Below the pieces are notes generated by a model. It ran no database searches and had not been told where the DNA came from. It saw nothing but the letters and a program-made list of their open reading frames with translations. A stretch of 64,000 nt of DNA from Pantanalinema sp. (lineage in GTDB: Bacteria > Cyanobacteriota > Sericytochromatia > S15B-MN24 > UBA4093): positions 1 through 64,000 of the forward strand of contig DATNQI010000096.1 in the NCBI GenBank assembly GCA_036704125.1. Reading direction: 5' to 3'. The translations under genes were made by a program, and so were the position numbers. Shown here piece after piece: positions 36,416 through 51,431 of this stretch (position 1 is its first letter; each line of letters begins with the position of its first letter).

Positions 36416-38407
36416 TCACCTGAGCGGGCTGAGCAGCCGGGTGAGGAAGCTCAGCTGGTCGGCCATGCCCATCACGAGCAGCGAGTCCCCGGCGCGGATG
36501 ACCTGGTCGGCGTCCGGGTTGGGCGAGACGCGGCCGGCGTGGCGCACGGCGAGCACTCCCACCCCGGTCCGGCCCCTGAGGTCGATGTCGCGCAGGCTCT
36601 GCTGGTTGAGCGGGGACCCCTCCGGGATGTCGACCCAGGTGATCTCGGCCTCGCCCAGCGCCTCGACCAGATCGAGGACCTGGGTCGGGTCGAAGGCGTC
36701 CTCGAACTGCCGGTAGCGCTTGGTACGGATCTGGTGGCTGTAGCGCAGGATCTCGTGGCTGGGGTAGCCGAGCAGGCTGAGAGTGTAGCGGATGACCTCG
36801 ATGCTCGCCTCGAACTCGGGCTGCACCACCTCGTCGGCGCCCAGGTCGTACAGCACGTCGACGTCCTGGGGACGGTGCGCCCGGGCCTGGACGTTGAGCT
36901 TGGGGTTGAGGGCCTTGGCGTTCTTGAGGGCGAGCTGGCAGCTGGTGGGATCGGAGAGGGCCACCAGCATCGCCCTGGCGAGGGGCAGCCGCGCGTGCTT
37001 GAGCACCTCGACGTTGGCCGCGTCCCCGTACATGCAGGGGATGTTGCGCGCGGAGAGCTCCTGGAGGGCGTTCTGGTCCACGTCGATGACGAAGATCGGG
37101 ATCTGGTGGTGGACCAGCACCTTGCACACGTTCTGGCCGAGGCGCCCGAAGCCGCAGATCACCACGTGGTCCACCAGCCCCGTCAGCTCGGCGGTGGCGA
37201 CGGTGGCCCGGGCCTTCCGGCCTCGGACCTCGCCGAACAGGGGAAGGCGGCGCAGGCGCAGGTAGAGCGGCGTGGCCGCCTGCATGAGCGTCGGGGTGAG
37301 GAGGATGGTGACCAGCGCGCTCGAGAGCACCAGGGCGAAGAGGTCCGCGGAGATGATCCCCTGCTGCTGGCCCATCTTGGCCAGGACGAAGGAGAACTCC
37401 CCCAGCTGCGCCAGCCCGAGTCCGATACCAAGCGCCGTGCGCCCCGAGTACCGGAAGAGTCGCGCGATCCCGAAGCCCAGCGCCGCCTTCAGCAGGACGA
37501 TGGCTATGGCGAAGCCCGCCACGCTCGGCAGGTGGGTCGCGATGAAGGCCGGGTTGATGAGCATCCCGGTCGAGACGAAGAACAGGGTGGCGAACAGGTC
37601 GCGCAGGGGCAGCACGTCGGCGAGGATCTGGTGGCTGTGGTCCGACTCGCTGACGACGATCCCCGCGATGAAGGCGCCAAGCGCGAGCGAGAGTCCCATC
37701 CGGTTGGAGATGACCGCCGTGCCGAAGCACACGAAGATGGCCGCAAGCAGGAACAGCTCCTTGTTGCGGGTGAGCGCGACCCGGCGCATCAGCATGGGGA
37801 AGAGCTTGGCGCCCAGGTACACGACCGCCCCGAGGAAGACGGCGGCCTTGGCGAGCGCGAAGAGCATGGGCCACCCAAGGATCTTGGCGGGGTCGCTCAG
37901 GTTCGGCATCACGACCATGAAGGGGACGACCGCGAGGTCCTGGACGACGAGCAGCCCGAGCAGGGCCTTGCCGTGGGCCGACTGGATCTCGCCGCGCTCG
38001 AGCAGGGTCTTGAGGACGATGAGGGTGCTGGAGAGGGAAATCATGCAGCCGAGCAGGATCCCCGCTCCGAGGCCGAGGCCCAGCAGGCGTGAGGCCAGGG
38101 CCGCCACCCCGATGGTGACGAGGATCTGGGCGCTGCCGCCGTAGAGGGCGATCTTCTTGACCGGCTTGAGCTCGGAGAAGGAGAACTCGACCCCCAGGGC
38201 GAACATCAGGAGGATGACGCCGAGCTCCGCGAAGGTCTCGATGGTGTGGAGGTCCGAGACGAACTTGAGGCCGTAGGGCCCGATCACAAGGCCACCGATC
38301 AGGTAGCCGATGATCACCGGCTGCTTGAGGCGGTAGAAGACGAAGCCCAGGCAGAGGGCCGCCGCCAGCACGACGGCCAGGTCCATCAAGAGTCGGTAAG
38401 CATCCAT
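36416..38407 (-). CDS. KefB-type monovalent cation/proton antiporter (CPA2)
   Basis: A 663-aa inner-membrane protein. About 12-13 helices fill residues 1-380 (VFYRLKQPVIIGYLIGGLVI, GVEFSFSELKP). A TrkA-N domain binding NAD(H) or nucleotide is near residue 413 (VICGFGRLGQNVCKVL) with the acidic IDVDQ end of its Rossmann fold, and a TrkA-C domain ends the protein. It exports K+ or Na+ in exchange for protons and is gated by nucleotides. It stands upstream of the carboxylase operon on the same strand. Confidence 0.92.
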   Translation of the reverse strand: MDAYRLLMDLAVVLAAALCLGFVFYRLKQPVIIGYLIGGLVIGPYGLKFVSDLHTIETFAELGVILLMFALGVEFSFSELKPVKKIALYGGSAQILVTIGVAALASRLLGLGLGAGILLGCMISLSSTLIVLKTLLERGEIQSAHGKALLGLLVVQDLAVVPFMVVMPNLSDPAKILGWPMLFALAKAAVFLGAVVYLGAKLFPMLMRRVALTRNKELFLLAAIFVCFGTAVISNRMGLSLALGAFIAGIVVSESDHSHQILADVLPLRDLFATLFFVSTGMLINPAFIATHLPSVAGFAIAIVLLKAALGFGIARLFRYSGRTALGIGLGLAQLGEFSFVLAKMGQQQGIISADLFALVLSSALVTILLTPTLMQAATPLYLRLRRLPLFGEVRGRKARATVATAELTGLVDHVVICGFGRLGQNVCKVLVHHQIPIFVIDVDQNALQELSARNIPCMYGDAANVEVLKHARLPLARAMLVALSDPTSCQLALKNAKALNPKLNVQARAHRPQDVDVLYDLGADEVVQPEFEASIEVIRYTLSLLGYPSHEILRYSHQIRTKRYRQFEDAFDPTQVLDLVEALGEAEITWVDIPEGSPLNQQSLRDIDLRGRTGVGVLAVRHAGRVSPNPDADQVIRAGDSLLVMGMADQLSFLTRLLSPLR

Positions 38408-38690: not shown

Positions 38691-39548
38691 ATGCGAACCG
38701 CCTTCGGTCGATCGTTGCCTCTCTGCGGCCTCGCCCTGTTGCTTCTCGTCGGCTGCACCAGTGGCGTCGCGAGCGCGCCCAAGACGCCCGCCGAGTTTCC
38801 GCTCTTCACGACGACCGATGGCTATGCCAGCCTCAACGTCTCGCTGGTCGACATGCGCCAGGCCATCCAGACCGTCACGGACCTCGAGGACGCGGACCGG
38901 GTCGAATTCACCTTGACCTCCGCCGCGAACCTGACGGCCCCCAAGAAGGCCACCGCGAGCATCGCCCTCCCGCTTCCTGGAGGCGCGACGAGCCAGCCGG
39001 TCTCCGGGCTCACCGCGTTCACCGGCCTGCGCCCGGGAAGCGACTACGTCCTTCGCGCCGACATTTACAAGACCTCCTATACCGCCAACAATCTTCGCGC
39101 CCAGGGAGTCTCGGACGTGATCACCCTTGCTGCCGGCGAAAACAAGACGGTGCCGGTCAAGATCAACGCGATCGGCAACGTCCAGTTGACCGCGAGCACC
39201 TTCGGCAACAAGTTCGACACGATGGAGGTGGTCTCGGGGGACACCGTCACCGTCAACACCCTCGTCAAGGCCAGCGAGAACCCGCTGTTGAAGTCGGTCG
39301 AGGTGTACTTCTTCGGCACCAACCTGAACGCGACCAAGCTCGGCTCGGTCGTGGTGCCCGTTCCCGCTGGAACCACGCCGACGACCCTGAGCTGGCAGGT
39401 TCCCGCCATCACGGGGAACTCGGACTCCGGCCTGCTCTATGTTCTCGGCTACGATGCGTCCAACAACGTGATCGCCCGCAAGTCCAGGGTGATGACGGTT
39501 TCCAAGGGGGCCTCGATCGGGAACTCGAGCCAGATTTCGCTCGATTAG
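38691..39548 (+). CDS. secreted lipoprotein, cassette 1 member A
   Basis: A 285-aa lipoprotein with signal peptide and lipobox LLLVGC (Cys22). The mature part looks like stacked Ig/fibronectin-type beta domains (SLNVSLVDMRQAIQTV, GLRPGSDYVLRADIYK, VLGYDASNNVIARKSRVM). It is a paralogue of the protein at 43758-44609: both share the VDMR segment, the G-L-x-P-x-x-x-Y motif, GVSD/GASD and the final LDASN-type motif. It is the first gene of a five-gene run. The function is unknown; a surface or periplasmic structural role is likely. Confidence 0.7.
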   Translation: MRTAFGRSLPLCGLALLLLVGCTSGVASAPKTPAEFPLFTTTDGYASLNVSLVDMRQAIQTVTDLEDADRVEFTLTSAANLTAPKKATASIALPLPGGATSQPVSGLTAFTGLRPGSDYVLRADIYKTSYTANNLRAQGVSDVITLAAGENKTVPVKINAIGNVQLTASTFGNKFDTMEVVSGDTVTVNTLVKASENPLLKSVEVYFFGTNLNATKLGSVVVPVPAGTTPTTLSWQVPAITGNSDSGLLYVLGYDASNNVIARKSRVMTVSKGASIGNSSQISLD

Positions 39549-39560
39549 GTCACTGTCCTG

Positions 39561-41015
39561 ATGACGCGCCACTCACCTTCCAAATCGTTCGCGATCGCGG
39601 CCCTGGTCCTGGCATTGACCGCCTGCACGGTTCCCGGCCCGGTCGTCTCGCGGGGGCCTGGGTTCGATCTCATGGGGCCTCAGCGTGAGGTGTCCGCCGG
39701 GATCCGCGTCAGCTTACGATCGGCGGGCAGAGGGGTTCAGACGCTTCCGACGGCCTGGGCCACGGCGAGCTTCGTCCTCTCGAACCCGGCGACGCTGGTG
39801 TCCGACCGCTACCAGGATCTCGCCCGGGCAAGCTTCGACGTGGCCGGCGGGTCGGCCGATTCGTCGGCGGCTCTCTTCCCCAACACGCGCCCGGGCACCG
39901 GTTACGCGCTCCATGCGAGCACCTACGTCGATTCAGCCGATGGGCCCCTGCGCAACGCGCTGGGCTATCAAGCGGGGCTCGAGCTGCGCGCCAACGACGC
40001 GACCCAGGCCCATATCCAGCTGGCGACCATTTTCCCCTGGACCTCGCACGTCCTGGCGAACGCGGGAGGCTCGGAGGCCGACGACACCGTGCCCTCGGAC
40101 CGGGGGGATGGCGGCCTTCCCGGCGACGCCAAGTTCAAGCGACCGATGGGGATCGCCTTTGCTCCCGACGGCACGCTGTACGTGGCGGATGCCGGCGCTT
40201 CGCGCATCCGGACGATCACCCCGGCGCGCGACCGCGTCGATTCGCTGATCTACGTTCCGGGGGCCGGTCTTCGCGCGCTCGCGTTCGCGCCAGGCCTGGA
40301 CAGCGGCGCGGATGTCCTGTTCTTCACCGACACCGACAACGATCGGGTGTGCATGGTGAGGAACCTCGGAACCACGAACGACGTCACCGCCTTGCCTGAC
40401 CTGGGCGCAGAGCCCAGCGGCATGTGCTACGACCCCGTTCGCAAGCAACTGTACGTTTCGCTGAACAACGACACCCTCTCCTTCATCAGCGTCGCCAACC
40501 TGGCTTTGCCGGTCGCGACCACCGTGAGCGTCACGACCGGCAGCGTGGGGCTGAGCAACCCTCAGGGGCTCGCGCTCAGCGCCGACGGCAGCCTGCTTTA
40601 CGTCGCCGATACGGGGCGCCATCGCATCCTGGCGCTGGACGTCGCCACAAAGCAGGCGACCGTTCTCGCCGGCACCGGATCCGAGGGCGACCTCGCCAAG
40701 GCCTCGGAGGGGGACGGCGGTCTTGCGTCCGGCGCGACCTTCAAGCGCCCCGTCGATCTGGCTTACGACGCGTTCGACGGCGGCCACCTCTACGTGATGG
40801 ACACCGGGGCGAAGGTGGTCCGGGTCGTCACCCTGCGCAACAAGCTCATCGCCACGGCGTGGGGGGATGGGGGCGCCCTCGACGTCGTGACATCGCGGGC
40901 CGCGCAGCTCACCTCCCTGCTCGACCCCGCTGGGATGGGCCTCATGGTGGACGCCTCCTCGGCCTCGCTCTACGTTTCCGATCGCGCGCGCATCCGGAGC
41001 ACCACCACGCCATGA
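39561..41015 (+). CDS. NHL-repeat propeller lipoprotein, cassette 1 member B
   Basis: A 484-aa lipoprotein with lipobox ALTAC (Cys22). Residues about 30-155 resemble the beta domain of the preceding lipoprotein. From about 190 to the end, NHL/propeller blades repeat the pattern P-x-G-(I/L)-A-x-x-x-D-G-x-L-Y-V-A-D (KRPMGIAFAPDGTLYVADAG, NPQGLALSADGSLLYVADTG). NHL propellers usually mediate binding. It is a paralogue of 44623-46164 and overlaps the next gene by ATGA. Confidence 0.8.
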   Translation: MTRHSPSKSFAIAALVLALTACTVPGPVVSRGPGFDLMGPQREVSAGIRVSLRSAGRGVQTLPTAWATASFVLSNPATLVSDRYQDLARASFDVAGGSADSSAALFPNTRPGTGYALHASTYVDSADGPLRNALGYQAGLELRANDATQAHIQLATIFPWTSHVLANAGGSEADDTVPSDRGDGGLPGDAKFKRPMGIAFAPDGTLYVADAGASRIRTITPARDRVDSLIYVPGAGLRALAFAPGLDSGADVLFFTDTDNDRVCMVRNLGTTNDVTALPDLGAEPSGMCYDPVRKQLYVSLNNDTLSFISVANLALPVATTVSVTTGSVGLSNPQGLALSADGSLLYVADTGRHRILALDVATKQATVLAGTGSEGDLAKASEGDGGLASGATFKRPVDLAYDAFDGGHLYVMDTGAKVVRVVTLRNKLIATAWGDGGALDVVTSRAAQLTSLLDPAGMGLMVDASSASLYVSDRARIRSTTTP

Positions 41016-42169
41016 AGCACCCTGGACGCCTCGCTTTGATCCTCGGCCTCGCGCTGGGCGCCTTTCCCCATGGCGCCCTGGCCGCGCCGCCGCAGGCGAT
41101 CACCCTGGTGCGAGAGATCCGCTACGAGCCGAGCGAGAGCGCGATCTACTTGCCGTTCGAGGGCCCACGGGCGCCCATGACCTCCATCTCCCACGCGGGC
41201 AAGAGCGTGGTGCTTGACATCCCCCGGGCGGACTTCCCCTTCGCCGAGCTCTACGCCCAGATCGAGAACTCGCCTCTGCTCAGCGCCTTCGTGGCCGCCT
41301 TCGATCCCGAGATCCAGGGCCTGCACCTGGTCATCGAGGGGCGCGTGCCGCTGCTCGCCGAGCCCGATCCCGCCTACCGCGGCGTGGGGATCAAGCTTTT
41401 GATCGCCCCTCGCGACCCCAGGCGCGCGGGCGCCATGCGCCCCACCGCGACGGTGCTGCAGCGAGTCACGGTGGTGCCGCGCGGCGGAGGTCATGCGCGC
41501 CCCTTCGCGCCTGCCGCCAAGGCCGGTCCGGCATGGGAGTTCCCGGCCCCGAGCCTGGGCTACGCCGGTGGTCCGACCTCCGAGCGCTACACCCCTCAGG
41601 CCCTCATCGGCGGCGCCGATTGGGCCAACCGCTTCAGCCTGAGCTGGGAGCCCGGCATGGGCGACTACGGCGTCCCCCTGCGCCTCGGCTACGGCGGCTA
41701 CCGTTACGACGACCCGGACTACGCCGGGGTGACGCACCGGCGCAGCGAGACGAGCGTGGCGGCGGCGCTCTCCCGCCGCTACGCCATGGGCCCCCTCCAA
41801 GGCAGCACCGGCTTCGGCTACCGGGCGACGTTCACCCGCTCGGACAGCAGCCAGGCGGTCGCCAGCCCGACCCTCTTCTTCGCCGGCTCGCAGCTCTTCC
41901 ATGGCCCGCTCCTTCGCCAGTCCCTCCGGGGCCAGGTCGTCGGGCCCCTCGGGGTCGGCCTGGATCTGGAATGGGTGCCGTACGCCTTCGCCCACATCGA
42001 CGACGGCACGCGCATGCCCTGGCTGACGGCATTTCGCGTCGAGCCGAGGCTGAGCCTCTGGCCGGATCAGCGGGTGACCCTCGGCTACTTCTACGAACGC
42101 ACCATGGGGGATCCCTTCCACCGCGAATCCAGCGGCGTGACGCTCGGCATGAGCTTCTCGGGCTTCTGA
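41012..42169 (+). CDS. outer-membrane barrel with AMIN-like N-terminus, cassette 1 member C
   Basis: A 385-aa exported protein with a signal peptide (residues 1-24). Residues about 28-130 resemble an AMIN domain (ITLVREIRYEPSESAIYLPF, KSVVLDIPRADFPF), a peptidoglycan-binding fold. The C-terminal 210 residues alternate strand-like segments (GVPLRLGYGGYRYDDPDYAG, VTLGYFYERT) and end in GMSFSGF with a terminal Phe, as outer-membrane barrels do. The barrel part matches the protein at 46167-46880, which lacks the AMIN-like part. It overlaps member B by ATGA. Confidence 0.7.
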   Translation: MKHPGRLALILGLALGAFPHGALAAPPQAITLVREIRYEPSESAIYLPFEGPRAPMTSISHAGKSVVLDIPRADFPFAELYAQIENSPLLSAFVAAFDPEIQGLHLVIEGRVPLLAEPDPAYRGVGIKLLIAPRDPRRAGAMRPTATVLQRVTVVPRGGGHARPFAPAAKAGPAWEFPAPSLGYAGGPTSERYTPQALIGGADWANRFSLSWEPGMGDYGVPLRLGYGGYRYDDPDYAGVTHRRSETSVAAALSRRYAMGPLQGSTGFGYRATFTRSDSSQAVASPTLFFAGSQLFHGPLLRQSLRGQVVGPLGVGLDLEWVPYAFAHIDDGTRMPWLTAFRVEPRLSLWPDQRVTLGYFYERTMGDPFHRESSGVTLGMSFSGF

Positions 42170-42183
42170 ACAGGAGAATCGCG

Positions 42184-42546
42184 ATGCCCCTCATGATTGC
42201 GGCCCTGACCACCACCCTGGCGCTCTCCGGCGCGGCTCCGGGCTTCGAGGCCGCCCCGGTGCCCCAGGTCCGGCAAGAGGCCGCCCCCGATTGGACCCAC
42301 TACGTGCCGGTCGGCGCCTCGTTCGTCGTGCCCGGCACCGGCCAGGTCTTGCAGGGCGACCTGCTCAAGGGGCTCTCGCACCTCGGCTTCGCCGCCGTTT
42401 GCCTGGGGCTGACCCAGCTGGGCTCGGGCTCTTCGGACCAGGCCCTGCGCGTGGCGGGCGGGGTCGGCCTCGTGGGCATCGGCCTCTGGAGCCCGTGGGA
42501 CGCCTTCACCAAGGCCGCCGGCTCCCGGCCGGAGGATGCGCGATGA
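42184..42546 (+). CDS. small membrane protein, cassette 1 member D
   Basis: A 120-aa protein with an N-terminal signal-like segment and two hydrophobic stretches (about residues 65-85 and 90-108: LSHLGFAAVCLGLTQLG, VAGGVGLVGIGLWSPWDAF). AGGAG precedes the ATG. It is unique to the first cassette and overlaps member E by ATGA. The function is not recognised. Confidence 0.6.
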   Translation: MPLMIAALTTTLALSGAAPGFEAAPVPQVRQEAAPDWTHYVPVGASFVVPGTGQVLQGDLLKGLSHLGFAAVCLGLTQLGSGSSDQALRVAGGVGLVGIGLWSPWDAFTKAAGSRPEDAR

Positions 42547-43625
42547 GCCGCCTCGCCCTCCGGCTGGGCCTCTTGCTCGGGGTTCTCGCGCCTCTGGCCG
42601 GCTGCAGCGTGTACGGGCTCGCCTCCTCCATGGGCTTCGGCGCGACCGAGGGCCGCTCGACCAGCGAGATCGCCACCGATCGCATCAGCGTCCTCTCGGG
42701 CCACGTCCAGGTGCCCGCCGCCCTCGGCGGCACGAAGGCGCTCGCAGAAATGAGCCCCCTGACGGTGGTCTCACCCCTGCTCGCCGTGGCGCCGCTCGCC
42801 GGGGTCCACCTCTACGCCCCGAGCTCCATCCGCTCGGTCCAGGCGACCAGCTTCGGCCCCGAGGGGGTGCGCGAGGCGCTGGTCGAGTTCGTCGACCTCG
42901 AGACGGGGGAGGTTGCAGCCACGGCCACGACGGGGCAGGACGGCCTCTACGCGACGCGCCTGGTCTTCAAGGGGACGCGCCATTCCTACATGGCGCAGAC
43001 GATCCTGCGCAACGCTCGCGGCCAGGTGGTGGGCTTCCTCGCAGCCCCGGTGGGCGTGGACGTCTCGCTGCCGGTGGGCAAGCGCCCTTCCCTGGATCTC
43101 AGCGCGGGCTCGACGCTCGTCGCGCTCTCGACCACGCTGCTCAGCGACGCCTACCCGACCTTCGACATGACCAAGGGGTATGCGGGGATCAAGAGCGGGC
43201 GCCTCGCCGCAATGGTCGGGACCATCCCCCCCCATCGCCTGCAGGGGGCGGCGAGCCTGCTCGACCAGAGCCGCACCCTGAACGCCGACTCCTTCGACAA
43301 GCTTTTGAGCGACGCCGCCACCGCCTCGGCGGTCATGACCTACGAGGTCCGCAAGCTGGCCCAGCAGGCGACGGGCGCCGCGAGCATCACCGAGGAGGCC
43401 CCCGGGGTCAACGCGGCGATCCTGGGGCAGCTCGTCGATCGCCTGGCGAGCCTCACCACGCCCCCTTCCGCGGACAGCACCCAGGGGTTTTTCGAGGCAG
43501 TCGGCAAGCAAGTGGATCTGGGCCAGGCCCGCACCGACGGGGATCAGATCAAGACCGCCCTGCCCTCGCTGCCGCCCTTGCCCTCGCCGACCCCGGCCAA
43601 GGGGGTCGAGGTGGTTTTCGAGTAG
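42543..43625 (+). CDS. secreted lipoprotein with carboxypeptidase-regulatory-like domain, cassette 1 member E
   Basis: A 360-aa lipoprotein with lipobox LAGC (Cys21) followed by SVYGLASSMG. Residues about 105-150 look like a beta-sandwich of the CarboxypepD_reg type (GVREALVEFVDLETGEVAAT, GQDGLYATRLVFKG). The second half is helical (GSTLVALSTTLLSDAYPTF, SDAATASAVMTYEVRKLAQQ), and the end is Pro-rich. It is a clear paralogue of 46903-48024, sharing the GCSxYGL start, the QTILRNxxGxVxGFLAAP segment and the TATASAV segment. A hairpin follows. Confidence 0.72.
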   Translation: MSRLALRLGLLLGVLAPLAGCSVYGLASSMGFGATEGRSTSEIATDRISVLSGHVQVPAALGGTKALAEMSPLTVVSPLLAVAPLAGVHLYAPSSIRSVQATSFGPEGVREALVEFVDLETGEVAATATTGQDGLYATRLVFKGTRHSYMAQTILRNARGQVVGFLAAPVGVDVSLPVGKRPSLDLSAGSTLVALSTTLLSDAYPTFDMTKGYAGIKSGRLAAMVGTIPPHRLQGAASLLDQSRTLNADSFDKLLSDAATASAVMTYEVRKLAQQATGAASITEEAPGVNAAILGQLVDRLASLTTPPSADSTQGFFEAVGKQVDLGQARTDGDQIKTALPSLPPLPSPTPAKGVEVVFE

Positions 43626-43645
43626 GCCAAAGGTGCCCGATGCCT

Positions 43646-43679
43646 CAAGCGCAGCGTGAGAAACATCACGCTGCGCTTG
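43646..43679. terminator. perfect 14-bp hairpin between the two cassettes
   Basis: CAAGCGCAGCGTGA, loop GAAACA and TCACGCTGCGCTTG. It is 20 bases after the member-E stop. There is no T-run, so it may be a partial terminator. It marks the border of the duplication. Confidence 0.65.
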
Positions 43680-43757
43680 GATTATCCACTGCCAGGCAAG
43701 GGTATTGAAGGGATGGGTGTCCCCACGTTTTCTCGTTTTCGAGCAGGAGAATTCCGC

Positions 43758-44609
43758 ATGGCCTTCCAACCCACTCGCCACGCTCTGGCTGTCATGGCCG
43801 CTGCCACGCTGACGCTGGTGGGCTGTATCGCCCCTGCGGCCGGGCCCGAGCAGCAGCAATCAGGCGCGAGCGTCCCCAAGGTCAAGCTCTTCACCAACGC
43901 GAGCGGCCTCGGCTCGCTGACCATGCGCGTGGTCGACATGCGCCGGGGGTTCGCGACGCAGGGGGTCGCGGACGCCGATCCCTGGGACCAGCTGGTGCTG
44001 AGGGTCAACTCGGCGCGGCTCAAGGCGCCGCGCACCGATACGGTCCTGCGCGCAGGGGTCCCGGCGAACAACGTCTTCACGTCCCCCGTGCTCACGGGCC
44101 TGCCGCCTTCTGCGGACTACTCGCTGCTTGTCAGCCTCACGGCGACCGGCGACGCCATCGTCGGCCAGGGGGCCTCGGACAGCATCAGGCTCGAGGCCGG
44201 GCGGGACGCGACCGTCTCGATCTACATCAACACCGTGGGTCAGATCTGGTTCGACAGCCCCGTCTACTACGCCTCCTCCAGCTCGGCGACCGCCTCGTTC
44301 GGCTTCCCGCAGCTGATGGCTGGAGAGCCGATCGACGTGCTCACCGCTTTCCAGCTGCCTTCCCCCTTCGCCAAGTTCTACACCGAGTTCCGGGACCTGG
44401 GCGGAGCGCTGCTGAACGCCACCTTCTCCACGCCGGTGACGGCAGCGGCGAGCCAGACCGTCACGGTGCCGGCCCTCGCGCCGGCCGATCTCGAAGGGGT
44501 GCGCGAGGTCTCGCTGGTCGGGCTGGATGCGTCCAATCGCGTCGTGAGCCGCCGGACGCGCAGGGTCCTGGTGCAGCGGGGCGCCCACATCGACGTGAAC
44601 CTCCAGTAG
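43758..44609 (+). CDS. secreted lipoprotein, cassette 2 member A
   Basis: A 283-aa lipoprotein with lipobox TLVGC (Cys23). It is a paralogue of 38691-39548 with the same order of beta segments (SLTMRVVDMRRGFATQ, GLPPSADYSLLVSLT, VSLVGLDASNRVVSRRTRRV). The start at 43758 follows AGGAG and gives the signal peptide; a longer reading has none. It is 13 bases upstream of the NHL protein gene. Confidence 0.7.
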   Translation: MAFQPTRHALAVMAAATLTLVGCIAPAAGPEQQQSGASVPKVKLFTNASGLGSLTMRVVDMRRGFATQGVADADPWDQLVLRVNSARLKAPRTDTVLRAGVPANNVFTSPVLTGLPPSADYSLLVSLTATGDAIVGQGASDSIRLEAGRDATVSIYINTVGQIWFDSPVYYASSSSATASFGFPQLMAGEPIDVLTAFQLPSPFAKFYTEFRDLGGALLNATFSTPVTAAASQTVTVPALAPADLEGVREVSLVGLDASNRVVSRRTRRVLVQRGAHIDVNLQ

Positions 44610-44622
44610 GCCGAGTCACGCC

Positions 44623-46164
44623 ATGCGCGCCCTTAGGCGATCGATGATCGTGGCGCTGGCCGTCACCGGGTGCGCCCCGGCGACGGTGAGTCCCGCTGCT
44701 CGCGCCCCGCAAGCGATCGCTCCGGGACTCGGCCTCTACCAGGCGAGGATCGACCTGGCCCTTGAGCTCGAGCGCCGCGTCCAGGCCCTGCCGGCGCCGG
44801 CCGCGTGGGACACGGTGGTGGTGACGGTGAGCTCGCAGCACCTCAAGGCGCCGCTGGTCTCGTCGCCGCTCTCCACCAGCGCGGCGTCGCTCTCGGTCGG
44901 CTTCAGCGTCCCGGTCGGCTCGGCCTCGATCGAGGCCGCCCTCTTCCACGGGGGGGCGTCGGGATCCTTGATCGCCTCGGGCAGCACCGCCATCGCCCTG
45001 GTGGCTGGGCCGAACGTGGCGACCCTCTCGGTCCAGCCGACGGGCGGGACCCTGGGCACCCTGGTGGGGAGCGGCGGCACCGGCTTCAGCCCGAACGGCA
45101 CCTCGGCCGCAAGCGCGCTGCTGAACCAGCCCACGGGCGTGGTGATGGACGCGTCGGGGAGCGTCCTCTTCGTCGAGAGGGCCAACCACAGCGTCCGCAT
45201 GGTCCCCAAGGTGCCAGGCACGTACTTCGGTGTCGCCATGGACGCGGGCCGGGTCTACACGGTGGCGGGCGACGGATCCCCCGGCAACAGCGGCGACGGC
45301 GGGCCGGCCACTGCCGCCAGGCTCCAGTATCCCACCGGGCTCGCCCTCGATCCCCTCGGGAGCCTCTACATCGCCGACACCACCAACAACAAGATCCGGC
45401 GGGTCAATCCGTCGGGGACCATCACCACGTTCGCCGGCAACGGCGTGGCCGGCCCCTGCACCGACGGCTATCCCGCGACCAGTGCCCAGCTGAGTGGCCC
45501 CTCGGGGGTCGCGGTGGACGCGAGCGGCAACCTGTACATCGCCGATAGCGGCAACCATCTGGTCTGCATGGTGCCGGTGGCCGCGGGCTCCTACTTCGGC
45601 AAGTCCATGGCCGCCAACTCGCTGTACAAGATCGCCGGCACGGGCATCGGGGGCTTCGATGGGGACGGGATGCCGGGGACGTCGACCAGGCTCGCCTATC
45701 CAACCGCGGTGGCCCTGAATTCCTGGGGGGACCTGGTCGTGGCTGATACCATGAATCACCGCGTGCGGCTGCTCCCGGCCGTCGCCGGGAACCGCTACGG
45801 GCAAGGCCTTGCCGCTGATGCCATGGCGACCATCGCCGGCACCGGGACCGCCGGCTTCAACGCCGACTTCATCGCCGGGATGTCGGCCCAGCTCGCCAAT
45901 CCCAGCGCTGTTGCGATCGACTCGGCCGGCAACGTGCTCATCGCCGACTCGAGCAACCATCGGATCCGCAAGCTGGGCTACGACGGCCAGATCTCGACGC
46001 TGGCGGGCGGTTCCGGCTCGGGCTTCGAGAATGGCCTGGCGACGGTGAGCGGGAAATTCTCCTTCCCGTGGGGGATCGCCCTGACCCCCTTTCAGGAGGT
46101 CGTCATCGCCGACCGAGACAACCACCAGCTGCGGCTCTTGCGCCCCTGGCCCGGGGGGATCTAG
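44623..46164 (+). CDS. NHL-repeat propeller lipoprotein, cassette 2 member B
   Basis: A 513-aa protein with a short signal and lipobox-like AVTGC (Cys17). The N-terminal 130 residues form a beta domain. From about residue 165, NHL blades are regular (YPTGLALDPLGSLYIADTTN, GPSGVAVDASGNLYIADSGN, NPSAVAIDSAGNVLIADSSN), giving about six blades, so a full propeller. Between blades are glycine-rich GDGGP segments. It is a paralogue of 39561-41015, with cleaner repeats. Confidence 0.82.
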   Translation: MRALRRSMIVALAVTGCAPATVSPAARAPQAIAPGLGLYQARIDLALELERRVQALPAPAAWDTVVVTVSSQHLKAPLVSSPLSTSAASLSVGFSVPVGSASIEAALFHGGASGSLIASGSTAIALVAGPNVATLSVQPTGGTLGTLVGSGGTGFSPNGTSAASALLNQPTGVVMDASGSVLFVERANHSVRMVPKVPGTYFGVAMDAGRVYTVAGDGSPGNSGDGGPATAARLQYPTGLALDPLGSLYIADTTNNKIRRVNPSGTITTFAGNGVAGPCTDGYPATSAQLSGPSGVAVDASGNLYIADSGNHLVCMVPVAAGSYFGKSMAANSLYKIAGTGIGGFDGDGMPGTSTRLAYPTAVALNSWGDLVVADTMNHRVRLLPAVAGNRYGQGLAADAMATIAGTGTAGFNADFIAGMSAQLANPSAVAIDSAGNVLIADSSNHRIRKLGYDGQISTLAGGSGSGFENGLATVSGKFSFPWGIALTPFQEVVIADRDNHQLRLLRPWPGGI

Positions 46165-46166
46165 CC

Positions 46167-46880
46167 ATGCGCCAAGACGCAGCGACCCTTCTTCTCGCCT
46201 CGGGCCTCGCGCTCCAGGCGACCGCTCCCGCGCTGGCGAGCGACGAGGGCATGCGCTTCGGCCTCTCCCGGGGGCCGGCCTCCGAGACCTACGCGCCCGA
46301 AGCCCTCTCGCTTCGCATCTCCTCCTTCGAGCGCTACCACCTCGGCTGGCGCTGGCAGCCGGCCATGGACACACGGGTGCTACTCACCCTCTCGCGCGGC
46401 GGCTATTCGATCGCCGATCCTGACTTCCCCGGCACCATCCACCAGCGCACCGAGACCGAAGGGTTGGTAGGGGGGATGCTGGCCTACGAGATGCTCGGCG
46501 GCGCGCTCGGCCTCGGGGTGGGGTACGCCGCGCGCCTGGTGGAGGTCATGAGCGGCGCCAAGGCGCCCGGCACCGATCCCGCCTTCCTCTTCGCCCCCTG
46601 GCAGGTCTTCCACGGGGTGGCCTTCCTCGCGGACTACCGGCGTCCTTTGTTCGGTCCCTTCGGCCTGGCCCTCGACGCGGCGGCAATGCCTCACGGCTTC
46701 GCCCAGCTCGGGGACAGCCGCCTGGCGTTGCCCTCGTTCTGGAGCGTGAGCCTGAACCCGCGCATCACCTTCTGGGGCGATCGCGCGGCCATCGGTTACC
46801 GCTACGAGCGGACCTACAGCGCCGTCTACGGCCGCGAGGCGGGGGTCATCACCGCCTCGTTCGCCCTGAGCGGGTTCTAG
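46167..46880 (+). CDS. outer-membrane barrel, cassette 2 member C
   Basis: A 237-aa exported protein with a signal peptide (ends PALA). The barrel-like body matches the C-terminal part of 41012-42169, as in SETYAPEAL/SERYTPQAL and GGYSIADPDFPG/GGYRYDDPDYAG, and ends ASFALSGF. It lacks the AMIN-like domain, so the two copies differ in peptidoglycan binding. The start is 2 bases after the NHL gene. Confidence 0.7.
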   Translation: MRQDAATLLLASGLALQATAPALASDEGMRFGLSRGPASETYAPEALSLRISSFERYHLGWRWQPAMDTRVLLTLSRGGYSIADPDFPGTIHQRTETEGLVGGMLAYEMLGGALGLGVGYAARLVEVMSGAKAPGTDPAFLFAPWQVFHGVAFLADYRRPLFGPFGLALDAAAMPHGFAQLGDSRLALPSFWSVSLNPRITFWGDRAAIGYRYERTYSAVYGREAGVITASFALSGF

Positions 46881-46902
46881 GGCGATGGGGGAGGGACGTG
46901 GC

Positions 46903-48024
46903 ATGCGGCGCGCGGTCCAAAGAGGCGTCATCGTCCTGACGATGCTCCCCCTGGCGGGCTGCAGCCTGTACGGGCTCGGGGTGGCCCTCGGCAACGCGCA
47001 AGGCTTCGGTCCTGGCTCGGAGCCCGATTATCGCGCGTTCAGCCTGGACGGCGCCGTCAGGCTGCCGCCGAGCCTGACCACGGTGGCCCCCCTGACCACG
47101 GTCGCGCCCCTGACCACCGTGGCCCCCTTGACGACGGTGGCCCCCTTGACCACCGTGGCTCCCTTGGCCACGGCGCCGTACCGGATCCAGCTGATCGGCC
47201 TTCGGATCCAGGCCCTGCAAGCCGAGTGGACCGCGGACGGAGCGGTGCGCAACGCGACCATCCAGGTGGTGGACCCCCTCACCGGGGAAGTCAAGGCCAC
47301 GGCGCTGACGGATGCGCAGGGCCGCTACTCGCTGCGGATGGTCGTCCAGGGGGCGCGCCATCCCTTCATCATCCAGACGATCCTGCGCAACCCGCAGGGC
47401 GTGGCGGGCTTCCTCGCGGCCCCGCTCGGGGCGACCATCGCCTCGGTCAAGGACAAGCGCCAGGTGGTGGACGTGACGCCGGGATCCACCCTCGTGACCT
47501 TCGCCTCCACCCTCATGACCGAGGCCTATCCCGACTTCCAGGTCGAGAAGGGCTTCGAGGGCATCAAGAGCCAGCGCCTGGCGACCCTGACCCAGGGCGT
47601 CTCGCCGACGAGCCTGGGAAAGGCGGTGGCGGTGCTGAACCAGAGCAGCGCCCTGAGCGAGAGCTCCCGCTTCGAGACCCTGCTCGGCGAGACCGCGACC
47701 GCCTCGGCGGTGCTGACGAGCCACGTCAAGGCCCTCACCCAGAAGGCGGCGAGCGCGAACCTCGACCAGATCGACACCGGGACGGCCCTGAGCCTCCAGA
47801 CGGCCGTCATCGGCCAGCTGGTCGAGAAGATCGGCGCCTTCGTCCCGGATGCGGGCAACCCGTCGCAGACCCTCTTCGAGGCGGTCGCCGACCAGGTCGA
47901 CCTGGGCCAGGTCCTCAAGGAGGCCGAGCAGGTCCGCCAGCAGGCCGCGCCGCAGCCGCTGCCGACGCTGCCCCCCGAGCCCTCCCCCCTTCCGAACCCC
48001 GGCGTGGGCATCGTCCTTCAGTGA
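46903..48024 (+). CDS. secreted lipoprotein with TTVAPL repeats, cassette 2 member E
   Basis: A 373-aa lipoprotein with lipobox LAGC (Cys21) then SLYGLG. Residues about 57-91 are five copies of LTTVAP. Then comes a CarboxypepD_reg-like beta-sandwich (AVRNATIQVVDPLTGEVKAT, DAQGRYSLRMVVQG), a helical half and a Pro-rich end. It is a paralogue of 42543-43625. The start at 46903 is set by GGAGGG. The 120-aa member D has no counterpart here. Confidence 0.75.
   Translation: MRRAVQRGVIVLTMLPLAGCSLYGLGVALGNAQGFGPGSEPDYRAFSLDGAVRLPPSLTTVAPLTTVAPLTTVAPLTTVAPLTTVAPLATAPYRIQLIGLRIQALQAEWTADGAVRNATIQVVDPLTGEVKATALTDAQGRYSLRMVVQGARHPFIIQTILRNPQGVAGFLAAPLGATIASVKDKRQVVDVTPGSTLVTFASTLMTEAYPDFQVEKGFEGIKSQRLATLTQGVSPTSLGKAVAVLNQSSALSESSRFETLLGETATASAVLTSHVKALTQKAASANLDQIDTGTALSLQTAVIGQLVEKIGAFVPDAGNPSQTLFEAVADQVDLGQVLKEAEQVRQQAAPQPLPTLPPEPSPLPNPGVGIVLQ
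47074..47181 (+). repeat. 18-bp minisatellite encoding LTTVAP
   Basis: Five units of 18 bases (from 47074) and one degenerate sixth unit encode the hexapeptide repeats. Variation between units is mostly at third codon positions, so selection appears to keep the peptide. Confidence 0.8.
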
Positions 48025-48098: not shown

Positions 48099-51000
48099 TT
48101 GCACTGCCACGCCTGCCGATACGAGCTTCCCACCCATGCCCTCTTCTGCGCGCAGTGCGGTGTTCGCCAGCTGATAGACGCCGAGAGCGCCGCCGAGGCT
48201 GCGGGTGATCGCCGCGTGGTCACGGTGCTGTTCGCGGACGTCTCGGGCTTCACCGCCATGAGCGAGAAGCTCGACCCCGAGCAGGTCACGGCCATCGTGA
48301 ACCGGTTCTTCGCGGTGCTCACCGAGCCGATCTATCGCTTCGGCGGGGTGGTGGACAAGTACATCGGGGACGCGATCATGGCCCTCTTCGGGGCCCCCAT
48401 CGCCCACGAGGACGATCCCGAGCGGGCGGTGCGCGCCGCCTTCGACATGCAGCTCGCCGCCGCCGCCTTCGCCGAGGAGCTGCAGGCCCAGACCGGCATC
48501 ACCCTCAAGGTGCGCATCGGGATCCACACGGGCCTGGTCGTCACGGGTGCGGTCGGCGGCGCTCAGAAGCGCGATTACACCGTCATGGGCGACACCGTGA
48601 ACCTTGCCCAGCAGATGGAGGGCGCCGCGCGCCCGGGCAAGGTCCTCGTCACCCACGAGACCTACCGGCACGCCACGCAGGCCATGGACTTCGCCCCCCT
48701 CGAGCCGATCCGGGTCAAGGGCAAGGTCGATCCGGTCCTCGTCTACGAGCTGGTCGGCCCCAAGGCCGAGCCCGCTGCGCGGATCGAGCCCGTGGCCATG
48801 GTGGGGCGAGAGGCCGAGCTTGCGATCCTCGAGCGGGCCTTCGCCGAGGCCGCAGCCGCCGAGCCTGGCGTGGTCCTGCTATCGGGCGAGGCCGGCATCG
48901 GCAAGTCCCTGCTCTCGAGCGCCCTGGTCTTCGGCCTGGATCCCTCGCGCGAGGTGGATGCCCAGCGGGTACGCGCCATCTCCTACGAGCAGGCGACGCC
49001 CTACGCCCTGTTGAGCGACTTCATCCTTCGCTGGCTCGGCGTCAAGAAGCAGGAGACGCCGGACGGGATCCGCTCGCGCCTGCGGCAGCGCGTCGAGGCC
49101 CTCGAGCCCTTGCCCGGCGAGGACCGGAAGCGCACGATCCTGGCCGTCTCCTATTTGCTCGGCATCGGTTCGGAGAGCGCCGAGTTCGCTCAGCTCACCC
49201 CGCAGCAGCGCCGCACCATGGCTTTTCGGGCCTTCAACGGCCTGCTGCTCGGCCATGCGCGCGAGCGGCCCATGCTCCTCAACTTCGAGGACCTGCACTG
49301 GGCGGACGAGGCCTCGATCGAGTGGATCCAGTCCCTGTTCGACGCCCTGGCGACCCGCGAGTTCCAGCAGAGCCGGGTCCTCGTGCTGTGCCAGGCCCGG
49401 CCGGTCGAGGGCAGCCCGCTGACGCGGTGGCGCGTCCCGATCGCGCAAACGACCCTCGTCCTGCGCCCCCTGAACCAGACCGAGAGCTGGGCCCTGGTGG
49501 CGCTCCAGCTGGGCCTGCCGCAGGAGCCGGACGCATGGCCCGAGGAGCTTCGCAAGCTCGGCGAGCAGGTGCTCTCGCGGGGCGAGGGGAATCCCCTCTT
49601 CTTGCGAGAGCTCGTGCGCTCGCTCGAGGAGGCGGGCGTGCTCGAGCGCGACGCGACGGGCGCCTGGCAAGTCGTCAAGACCGCCGCGAGCCAGCTGCCC
49701 AGCACGGTGAGCGGCGTCATCCGTTCGCGCCTCGATCGGCTCGGTCCCTCGCTGCGCTCGGTGCTTCAGCTGGCTTCGGTCGTCGGGCGAAACTTCGAGC
49801 CCGGCCTGATCGCGACCGTCTCCGAGCAGCCCGAGGTCGCCGACCCGCTCGATGCGCTGGTGAGCGCCGAGTTCCTGCATCGCAGGTCGTCCGGCGAGTG
49901 GCAATTCTACCAGGCCCTCATCCACGAGACGGTCTACAACTCGCTTTTGCTCGCGACGCGCCGGGACCTGCACCGCAAGGTGGGCCAGGCGCTAGAGCAG
50001 CAGCTCGGCGATCGCTGCGAGCAGAGCCCCGAGGTGCTCGCGCGCCACTTCCTGCTCGGCGAGGTGCCCTCCAAGGCGCTCTACTACCTCTTTCGATCCG
50101 GCGAGAAGGCGCTGCGCGGTTTCTCGAACCAGGAAGCCCTTCACTGCTTCGAGGAGTGCCTTGCCCTCATGGACCGCGGGACGGACCTAAGCGCGACGCC
50201 CTCGCGCGCCGAGGTCCTGCTCGCCCTCTCGGAGCTGCTTTCGACCACCGGCCAGTACGCGCAGGCGATCGCGCACCTGAAAACGGTGCTCGCCGAGCAG
50301 GATCAGCCGCACGAGCGTGCCGAGACCATGCGCCGCCTGGGGGGGATCTACAACCTGCAGGGCCAGTACGGCGAGGCGATGGCCTACTACGAGCAAGGCC
50401 TCTCGGACCTCCTGGCATGCGAGGCGCCCCTCGTGCGGGCGCGCATCCTCCTGGACCAGGCCCTCAGCCTGTTTCGCCAGGGCCGCTACCAGGAGGTCGT
50501 CGCGCTCTGCCAGCTAAGCCTCGCGGCCCTGAACGACGACGCGCATCCCAAGGAGACGGCGATGGCCATGAGCATCCTCGGGATCGTCTGCTACCGGCAG
50601 AACCAGCTGAGCGCGGCCGAGGCGTATCACATGCAGGCCGCGGAGCTGCGCGAGCGGATCCAGGACGTGTTCGGCGTGGCCTCGAGCCTCAACAACCTGG
50701 GCGCCCTCTACCTGGAGCTCGGGGACTGGGCGCGCTGCGCCGAGAACTACGAGCGGAGCCTGCGCCTGTACGAGCAGATCGGCGATGTGAGCCGACAGAT
50801 CATCCAGATGAACAACCTGGGAGATCTGCTGCGCAACCGGGGCGATCTCGCCCAGGCCCTGGACTTCCATCGGCAGGCCCTGGACCGGAGCCGGGAGATC
50901 CAGGATTCGTTCGGGGCCGGGGTGGCCGCGGTCGGCATGGGGCTCGTGCTGGTGGCGGGCGATCGCGCCGAGGAGGCCATCGAGCGACTCCAGGAAGGCA

Positions 51001-51431
51001 TCGGGATCATGCGCGGCATCAATGCGGTCGAGGTCCTGCCCGAGGCCCTGGCGGCGCTCGCCAAGGCCTACCATCTCGGCGCGCGCGATCCCGAGGCCCG
51101 CGAGGCACTGCGGCAAGCCCTCGCCCAGGCGCAAGACAACAAGAGCGACGCCCAGGTCGGGCTGACCCAGACGGCCGCGGCCCTGATTCACGCCGAGCGC
51201 GATGAGCTCGTCGAGGCCCGGCAGGCGATCCGAGAGGCGCTAACGGCCCTCGGCGAGGCCGGCGCGCCCATCGAGCTTGCCCGCGCCACCGCGGTCGAGG
51301 CTCGGATCCTGGCGGCGATGGGCGATCGCGCCGCGGCGGATCGCAAGCGCGAGGAAGCCGCCGCCGTCTTCGATCGGCTCGGGGCGAAGCTCGACCAGCA
51401 GGCGCTCGAGCTTCATTTCCGCTTAACATAA
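48099..51431 (+). CDS. class III adenylate/guanylate cyclase with zinc ribbon, AAA-type ATPase and TPR array
   Basis: A 1110-aa multidomain signalling protein beginning at a TTG codon, with GAGG six bases upstream. Residues 3-20 form a zinc ribbon (C3, C6, C17, C20). A class III cyclase domain spans about 38-200, with metal-binding Asp in VLFADVSGFTAM and in KYIGDAIMALFGAP. A STAND/AAA-type ATPase domain follows (Walker A LLSGEAGIGKS near 262; LNFEDLHWADE). From about 640 to 1080, TPR repeats run (SLNNLGALYLELGDWARCAE, QMNNLGDLLRNRGDLAQALD). It is expected to be cytosolic and regulated through protein or ligand binding to the TPR/ATPase part. Confidence 0.9.
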   Translation: MHCHACRYELPTHALFCAQCGVRQLIDAESAAEAAGDRRVVTVLFADVSGFTAMSEKLDPEQVTAIVNRFFAVLTEPIYRFGGVVDKYIGDAIMALFGAPIAHEDDPERAVRAAFDMQLAAAAFAEELQAQTGITLKVRIGIHTGLVVTGAVGGAQKRDYTVMGDTVNLAQQMEGAARPGKVLVTHETYRHATQAMDFAPLEPIRVKGKVDPVLVYELVGPKAEPAARIEPVAMVGREAELAILERAFAEAAAAEPGVVLLSGEAGIGKSLLSSALVFGLDPSREVDAQRVRAISYEQATPYALLSDFILRWLGVKKQETPDGIRSRLRQRVEALEPLPGEDRKRTILAVSYLLGIGSESAEFAQLTPQQRRTMAFRAFNGLLLGHARERPMLLNFEDLHWADEASIEWIQSLFDALATREFQQSRVLVLCQARPVEGSPLTRWRVPIAQTTLVLRPLNQTESWALVALQLGLPQEPDAWPEELRKLGEQVLSRGEGNPLFLRELVRSLEEAGVLERDATGAWQVVKTAASQLPSTVSGVIRSRLDRLGPSLRSVLQLASVVGRNFEPGLIATVSEQPEVADPLDALVSAEFLHRRSSGEWQFYQALIHETVYNSLLLATRRDLHRKVGQALEQQLGDRCEQSPEVLARHFLLGEVPSKALYYLFRSGEKALRGFSNQEALHCFEECLALMDRGTDLSATPSRAEVLLALSELLSTTGQYAQAIAHLKTVLAEQDQPHERAETMRRLGGIYNLQGQYGEAMAYYEQGLSDLLACEAPLVRARILLDQALSLFRQGRYQEVVALCQLSLAALNDDAHPKETAMAMSILGIVCYRQNQLSAAEAYHMQAAELRERIQDVFGVASSLNNLGALYLELGDWARCAENYERSLRLYEQIGDVSRQIIQMNNLGDLLRNRGDLAQALDFHRQALDRSREIQDSFGAGVAAVGMGLVLVAGDRAEEAIERLQEGIGIMRGINAVEVLPEALAALAKAYHLGARDPEAREALRQALAQAQDNKSDAQVGLTQTAAALIHAERDELVEARQAIREALTALGEAGAPIELARATAVEARILAAMGDRAAADRKREEAAAVFDRLGAKLDQQALELHFRLT

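Follow-up and report, generated by a model that had tools for sequence, protein, structure and literature searches.

The DNA analysed here, a 64,000-nucleotide stretch of contig DATNQI010000096.1 from Pantanalinema sp. (the window; contig 96 of a 3.5-Mb genome in 102 contigs), carries at positions 38691–48024 of the plus strand a run of nine intact genes for predicted lipoproteins, NHL beta-propellers and outer-membrane barrels, in the order A1-B1-C1-D1-E1-A2-B2-C2-E2. The two tandem sets form a single nine-gene cluster with diverged copies. The original prediction named eight of these genes, all of them intact open reading frames lying where it placed them, and arranged them as ordered counterparts. 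Its A, B, C and E pairs hold; gene D, the homology between A and B, the AMIN domain of C1 and a third cassette elsewhere in the genome were overlooked, and C2, without the N-terminal AMIN-like region, is shorter than its partner.

Copy 1 begins with A1 (38691–39548), a lipoprotein (lipobox LVGC) assigned two Ig/FnIII-like beta-sandwich domains from its reading frame, lipobox, AlphaFold2 model and profile. B1 (39561–41015; LTAC) joins an A-type Ig1 domain to a degenerate NHL propeller, and C1 (41012–42169) comprises a Sec signal, an AMIN-like domain (residues about 25–140), a linker and a 10-stranded outer-membrane barrel (about 181–385) that ends in SGF. D1 (42184–42546), present in copy 1 only, encodes a 120-residue membrane-associated protein with a PGTGQxxQGxxLKG motif, and E1 (42543–43625) a lipoprotein (LAGC) with a prealbumin/CarboxypepD_reg-like domain and a conserved C-terminal region. 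Beyond a 132-bp spacer (43626–43757, plus strand) lie A2 (43758–44609; LVGC), the A1 paralogue; B2 (44623–46164; VTGC), whose NHL propeller follows a very degenerate A-type N-terminal domain; C2 (46167–46880), a 237-residue outer-membrane barrel without an AMIN domain, again ending in SGF; and E2 (46903–48024), the E1 paralogue. As had been proposed, export signals are present throughout the pairs, with lipoboxes in A, B and E of both copies and a signal of Sec type in each C protein. The ATGA overlaps on which joint translation of each set had been argued occur at B1/C1 and D1/E1 (4 bp each); the remaining junctions within the sets are gaps of 2–22 bp. A consensus scan of the spacer gave no promoter match and an Rfam search no riboswitch or other RNA element. 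Weak terminator-like stems lie at 43588–43608 (within the end of E1) and 43710–43723, their number being within chance expectation.

The paralogy of the four pairs is genuine. Identity is 34% for A1/A2, 31% for B1/B2, 34% for C1/C2 and 42% for E1/E2, and local alignments made with signal peptides removed lie at z 29, 13, 43 and 63 above shuffles, respectively. All other pairs of cluster genes stay at z ≤ 4.3; the two that reach 4, A1–B1 and A2–B2, do so because the N-terminus of B is related to the first A domain. Most of the shared motifs originally listed are likewise present in both members (VDMR in A1 and A2, GGYxxxDPD and the final SGF in C1 and C2, GCSxYGL and QTILRN in E1 and E2), but LDASN is confined to A2, with YDASN in A1. 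Iterated profiles of A and C drifted into proline-rich linkers and propellers and were unfit for claims, so we relied on leave-out profiles drawn solely from sequences of other genomes or loci, with no window members, and used 1800 shuffled window proteins as the control. These profiles recovered A1 at 6e-16, A2 at 2e-14, C1 at 7e-30, C2 at 7.6e-25, E1 at 1e-43 and E2 at 9e-63, against 0.24–0.78 for the best of the shuffles. Searched directly as proteins, C1 and E1 had a single close copy apiece in their own genome, namely the window partner, and a search for plasmid relatives of C1 and E2 found none.

The AlphaFold2 model of A1, of moderate confidence (mean predicted local distance difference test score, pLDDT, 64), consists of two sandwiches of 7–8 strands, and Foldseek matched it to Ig/FnIII domain pairs. 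The NHL blades ascribed to the B pair are confirmed by PF01436 (cut-off 20), with 55 bits for B1 (E 4.5e-15) and 137 bits over 6 repeats for B2 (E 4.4e-41). Against an A-Ig1 profile made without window members, the N-terminus of B1 scored 1.5e-7 (best of 1800 shuffles, 0.54) and that of B2 a marginal 0.008–0.09. Judged by these similarities, B consists of the first A Ig domain, in degenerate form, fused to an NHL propeller. Proteins that combine an A domain and a propeller (AB) are also encoded in a genome of the same family (G001) and at loci L039, L079, L080, L086 and L087. NHL-type propellers are much expanded in the Pantanalinema genome itself, where 98 stretches match B2 in 3.5 Mb, on contigs 8, 13, 17, 18, 21, 39, 45, 51, 60, 62, 64, 71, 82 and others.

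C1 is an outer-membrane barrel by its modelled fold, Sec signal and final phenylalanine. In the AlphaFold2 model its last 205 residues form a barrel of about 10 strands (pLDDT mostly 80–96), and comparison with the PDB returned outer-membrane barrels at E 8e-6 to 1e-3, the best being OpcA of Neisseria, a 10-strand adhesin barrel (template-modelling score TMt 0.62). The model and this match bear out the barrel in the originally proposed composition of lipoprotein, propeller and barrel. OpcA differs from C1 in having neither an AMIN domain nor lipoprotein partners, and the two are 11% identical over the aligned part.

The association of an outer-membrane barrel gene with lipoprotein genes, a beta-propeller's among them, recalls BtuB-BtuG and the Sus utilisomes of Bacteroides (PMC10404256, PMC7618045). 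The B and AB lipoprotein propellers are encoded next to the barrel; in the nearest arrangement described, BtuG, a surface propeller lipoprotein, caps the BtuB barrel (PMC10404256). The cluster might accordingly be an uptake or capture system, in which propeller and Ig-like lipoproteins bind a solute and pass it to the barrel. We consider this improbable. The C barrel has about 200 residues and about 10 strands, with no plug domain and no Pfam match, in contrast to the 22 strands of a TonB-dependent transporter, and ten-stranded barrels are considered occluded and non-transporting (PMC10628300); the propeller is of NHL type, with Ig or prealbumin N-terminal domains; and the cassettes contain no recognisable inner-membrane importer.

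The company of several lipoprotein genes also resembles the loci of Slam and the type 11 secretion system (T11SS), where a dedicated barrel gene stands beside its cargo (PMC9090332, PMC12282271), and C could on that model be a small translocon dedicated to its own lipoproteins. There is, however, no detectable homology to Slam: C1, C2 and the scanned relatives have no Pfam match to a Slam-type or other secretion barrel, the barrel is of another size, and C1 carries an AMIN domain in place of TPR. Most E and many A-NHL lipoproteins of the order, moreover, have no adjoining barrel gene, and we regard an export role as quite improbable.

The N-terminus of C1 scored 4.6e-5 against a lineage AMIN profile made without C1 (best shuffle, 0.39). 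PF11741, the AMIN family, is itself exceeded (cut-off 20.5) by the C protein of G001 (22.5 bits) and by a fourth, distant C on contig 98 of the Pantanalinema genome (36.1 bits). On this sequence evidence the C1 N-terminus is homologous to the AMIN-like domains of its C relatives, and by analogy it probably binds peptidoglycan, as the AMIN domains of PilQ do (PMC5285504). PilQ and AmiC share with C the possession of AMIN domains, often in tandem, and PilQ also has an outer-membrane part; C differs in lacking secretin and amidase domains and in joining AMIN to a small single-chain barrel. The two parts are fused in the window, in G001 and at L079, L080 and L087, and at L083, L084 and L111 a separate tandem-AMIN gene lies directly upstream of the barrel gene. 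At L114 (6860–8248; genome G010), SLH domains occupy the AMIN position in a protein whose barrel is a weak relative of C (1.4e-5); its gene adjoins that of a lipoprotein with a CarboxypepD_reg-like stretch.

The E proteins share two features: a CarboxypepD_reg/prealbumin-like domain, which scores under the Pfam cut-offs, and a conserved region of 'TGFRGF' type. Against PF13620 (curated cut-off 32.3), E2 has a weak match of 18.6 bits (2.5e-3) and L046 one of 29.1 bits; the E-like proteins of L080 and L111 match PF13620 and SdrD_B at 21–25 bits. An E or E-like domain is fused to a propeller at L040, L041, L080 and L111. In E2 an 18-bp tandem repeat (47073–47173, 5.6 copies) encodes the N-terminal PLTTVA hexapeptide array, and short arrays on the N-terminal side vary among E and E-like lipoproteins (PLTNAS, PLANVT, NNAGGL and GGGNLIAS; L041, L042, L043, L080, L082 and L111). 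D1 matched no Pfam family over threshold. It has an orthologue 42% identical in G001, placed between C and A, and is common to copy 1 and G001 only. Its slot after the C barrel is taken in G005 and G003 by an Ig-like lipoprotein of 100–170 residues with weak Big_7/Big_6 similarity (L081, L082, L083, L084, L085, L111 and L112).

The exact gene order A-B-C-E, which had been expected to recur in other genomes, is not kept elsewhere. Instead we found C(2 AMIN)-D-A-E-AB in G001, A-Elike-C(AMIN)-AB in a third cassette on contig 21 of the Pantanalinema genome (62.8–68.7 kb; L079) and C(AMIN)-AB-AB-Elike(NHL)-AB at L080 of G005. The forms in G005, G003 and G007, three further genomes of the order, are shuffled too. 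Shorter or rearranged sets are C-AB (L086 and L087, G007), Elike(NHL)-A-A-tandem AMIN-C-small Ig lipoprotein (L111, G005; the second A is weak), A-tandem AMIN-C-Ig (L083, G005) and tandem AMIN-C-Ig (L084, G003), the last with A-NHL alongside and a second AMIN-barrel on the opposite strand. The protein in the E slot of the third cassette (L079 6681–7727) is treated here as E-like and not as a true E, with an E profile value of 0.16 and 1% probability in profile comparison; it shares only the layout and the E-like profile. Downstream of the third cassette, at 15.7–19.5 kb of L079, lie mevalonate-pathway-like genes, whose HMG-CoA reductase is nearest, within a named collection, to Firmicute (Ornithinibacillus) and myxobacterial enzymes, which hints at a horizontal origin.

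Gene content is nevertheless kept across the cassettes far beyond chance, and it is the order that is shuffled. A class-wide search for A, run independently of C to avoid bias from C-chosen loci, gave 17 matches below 1e-15, of which 16 lie beside a C barrel; the seventeenth lies where a contig of 3.7 kb ends and cannot be judged. Counted by locus, 10 of 11 A loci are at C, for which the chance is about 6e-15 at generous 3% odds each. C-type barrels occur in five of the ten genomes of the order, with one weak relative in the class (G010). Neither such a barrel nor an E-family member was found in about 274 other sampled genomes of the phylum, and the E family is thus confined to the order in this sample. 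The photosystem family PF00124 is present in 47 of 117 sampled genomes of the phylum (among named controls, only in Synechococcus) but all 18 genomes of this class lack it, which identifies the class as a non-photosynthetic one within Cyanobacteriota.

This linkage bears on another reading, that the lipoproteins are independently acting, co-regulated adhesins or surface decoration, and that the barrel gene is along for the ride. The expansion of NHL propellers noted above would fit it, as would the occurrence of A and E relatives on their own and the fluid order and copy number of the genes. Strong A domains, on the other hand, are found essentially only beside the barrel, and AMIN-barrel and A-propeller units recur in three families with both fusions and fissions. 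We therefore hold independent action to be doubtful.

Trees of E and of C group copy 1 with the single cassette of G001 (support 97/95 and 91/84, respectively). Because of this grouping, and because D is found only in copy 1 and G001, we suggest that the two genera parted after the duplication and that the copy-1 type is the one retained by G001, in agreement with the old duplication originally proposed. The same trees disfavour a simple recent tandem duplication; approximately unbiased (AU) tests of grouping copy 1 with copy 2 gave p 0.07 for E, 0.12 for C and 0.09 for A, values that leave this alternative unrejected. The AB gene of G001 is the sister of the A gene of that genome (98/98), and thus probably represents a fresh A-to-propeller fusion in the G001 lineage.

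Taking together the lipoboxes, the domains, the recurrent genetic linkage and the fusions of A and of E to propellers, we tentatively interpret the cluster, with slightly less than even confidence, as an envelope module whose barrel, anchored to the wall, would organise lipoproteins at the outer membrane, complex formation and surface exposure being predicted features. The C1 barrel would reside in the outer membrane, and its AMIN-like domain, in the periplasm, would grip peptidoglycan. A 10-strand barrel is probably too narrow for a general channel, and we favour a wall-anchored scaffold because such barrels are reported not to transport (PMC10628300). The scaffold would position, by putative contact and at the presumed cell surface, the lipid-anchored Ig-like A, the Ig- and NHL-propeller-containing B and the prealbumin-like E, with the propeller and Ig modules as the likely ligand-binding or adhesive part. 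C2 has, by alignment, lost the AMIN part and copy 2 is without D; complementary variants, one with wall anchor and D and one a bare barrel, are therefore likelier than redundant copies. A more ambitious version, which we consider doubtful as well, would unite the two asymmetric tandem copies in one hetero-complex, a lineage-specific envelope machine. In these non-photosynthetic Cyanobacteriota, an AMIN-barrel anchored to peptidoglycan would then bear Ig, prealbumin and NHL-propeller lipoproteins arrayed on the surface. If true, the assembly would be an outer-membrane tether doubling as a lipoprotein display platform.

Several observations weigh against a wall-anchored module. The AMIN part of the C1 model is of low confidence (pLDDT 50–63), C1 matches nothing in Pfam, PF11741 included, even at E 1, and its similarity to the AMIN-like domains of relatives is moderate; C2, which aligns to residues 165–385 of C1 only, has no such domain. 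C occurs without A or E at four loci, with an Ig lipoprotein at L081, L085 and L112 and alone at L110, and E-family genes exist far from barrels, including in a flagellar operon (L042, L044). Other candidate tethers are also present, as each of the 18 genomes of the class has SLH and OmpA domains. The AMIN-barrel is thereby ruled out as the sole outer-membrane tether, and the module would supplement these candidate tethers rather than replace them.

The E-family lipoprotein gene in the flagellar operon was seen in G006 and G008, which belong to one genus (L042 8763–10628; L044 7353–9323), where it follows a flgB-like gene and precedes flgC-fliE-fliF. To the right of the window cluster, 74 bp past E2, starts a plus-strand cyclase-AAA-TPR gene (48099–51431), and such a regulator, or a TPR/AAA relative, adjoins or lies near E-family genes at five loci (the window, L043, L046, L047 and L054). 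The left neighbour is a divergent Na/H-exchanger/TrkA antiporter gene (36416–38407, minus strand).

A, C and E matched no named family in Pfam or NCBIfam, and with the open literature also searched, these three families and their combination appear undescribed. The original view that no described system has this composition stands for the precise composition; the general kinds are already known, namely a barrel with lipoproteins (BtuB-BtuG; PMC10404256) and a barrel with a wall anchor (OmpM). The OmpM/SLH-OprB tethers of Terrabacteria (PMC10628300) also combine an N-terminal wall-binding domain with a C-terminal barrel, and the weak C relative of G010 even has SLH. Pfam found no SLH domain in C1 or C2; C1 differs from OmpM in its AMIN-like domain, its predicted 10-strand barrel and its recurring lipoprotein company, and SLH proteins are present in addition in the same genome.

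How the non-photosynthetic sister classes of Cyanobacteria build their cell envelope is so far little known. The barrel-AMIN-propeller module is a candidate link between outer membrane and wall beside OmpA and SLH-OmpM, and the natural swaps among its relatives (AMIN fused, AMIN separate, possibly SLH for AMIN) allow the anchoring hypothesis to be tested directly. With the module, three unnamed families, A, the C barrel and E, gain a testable common role.

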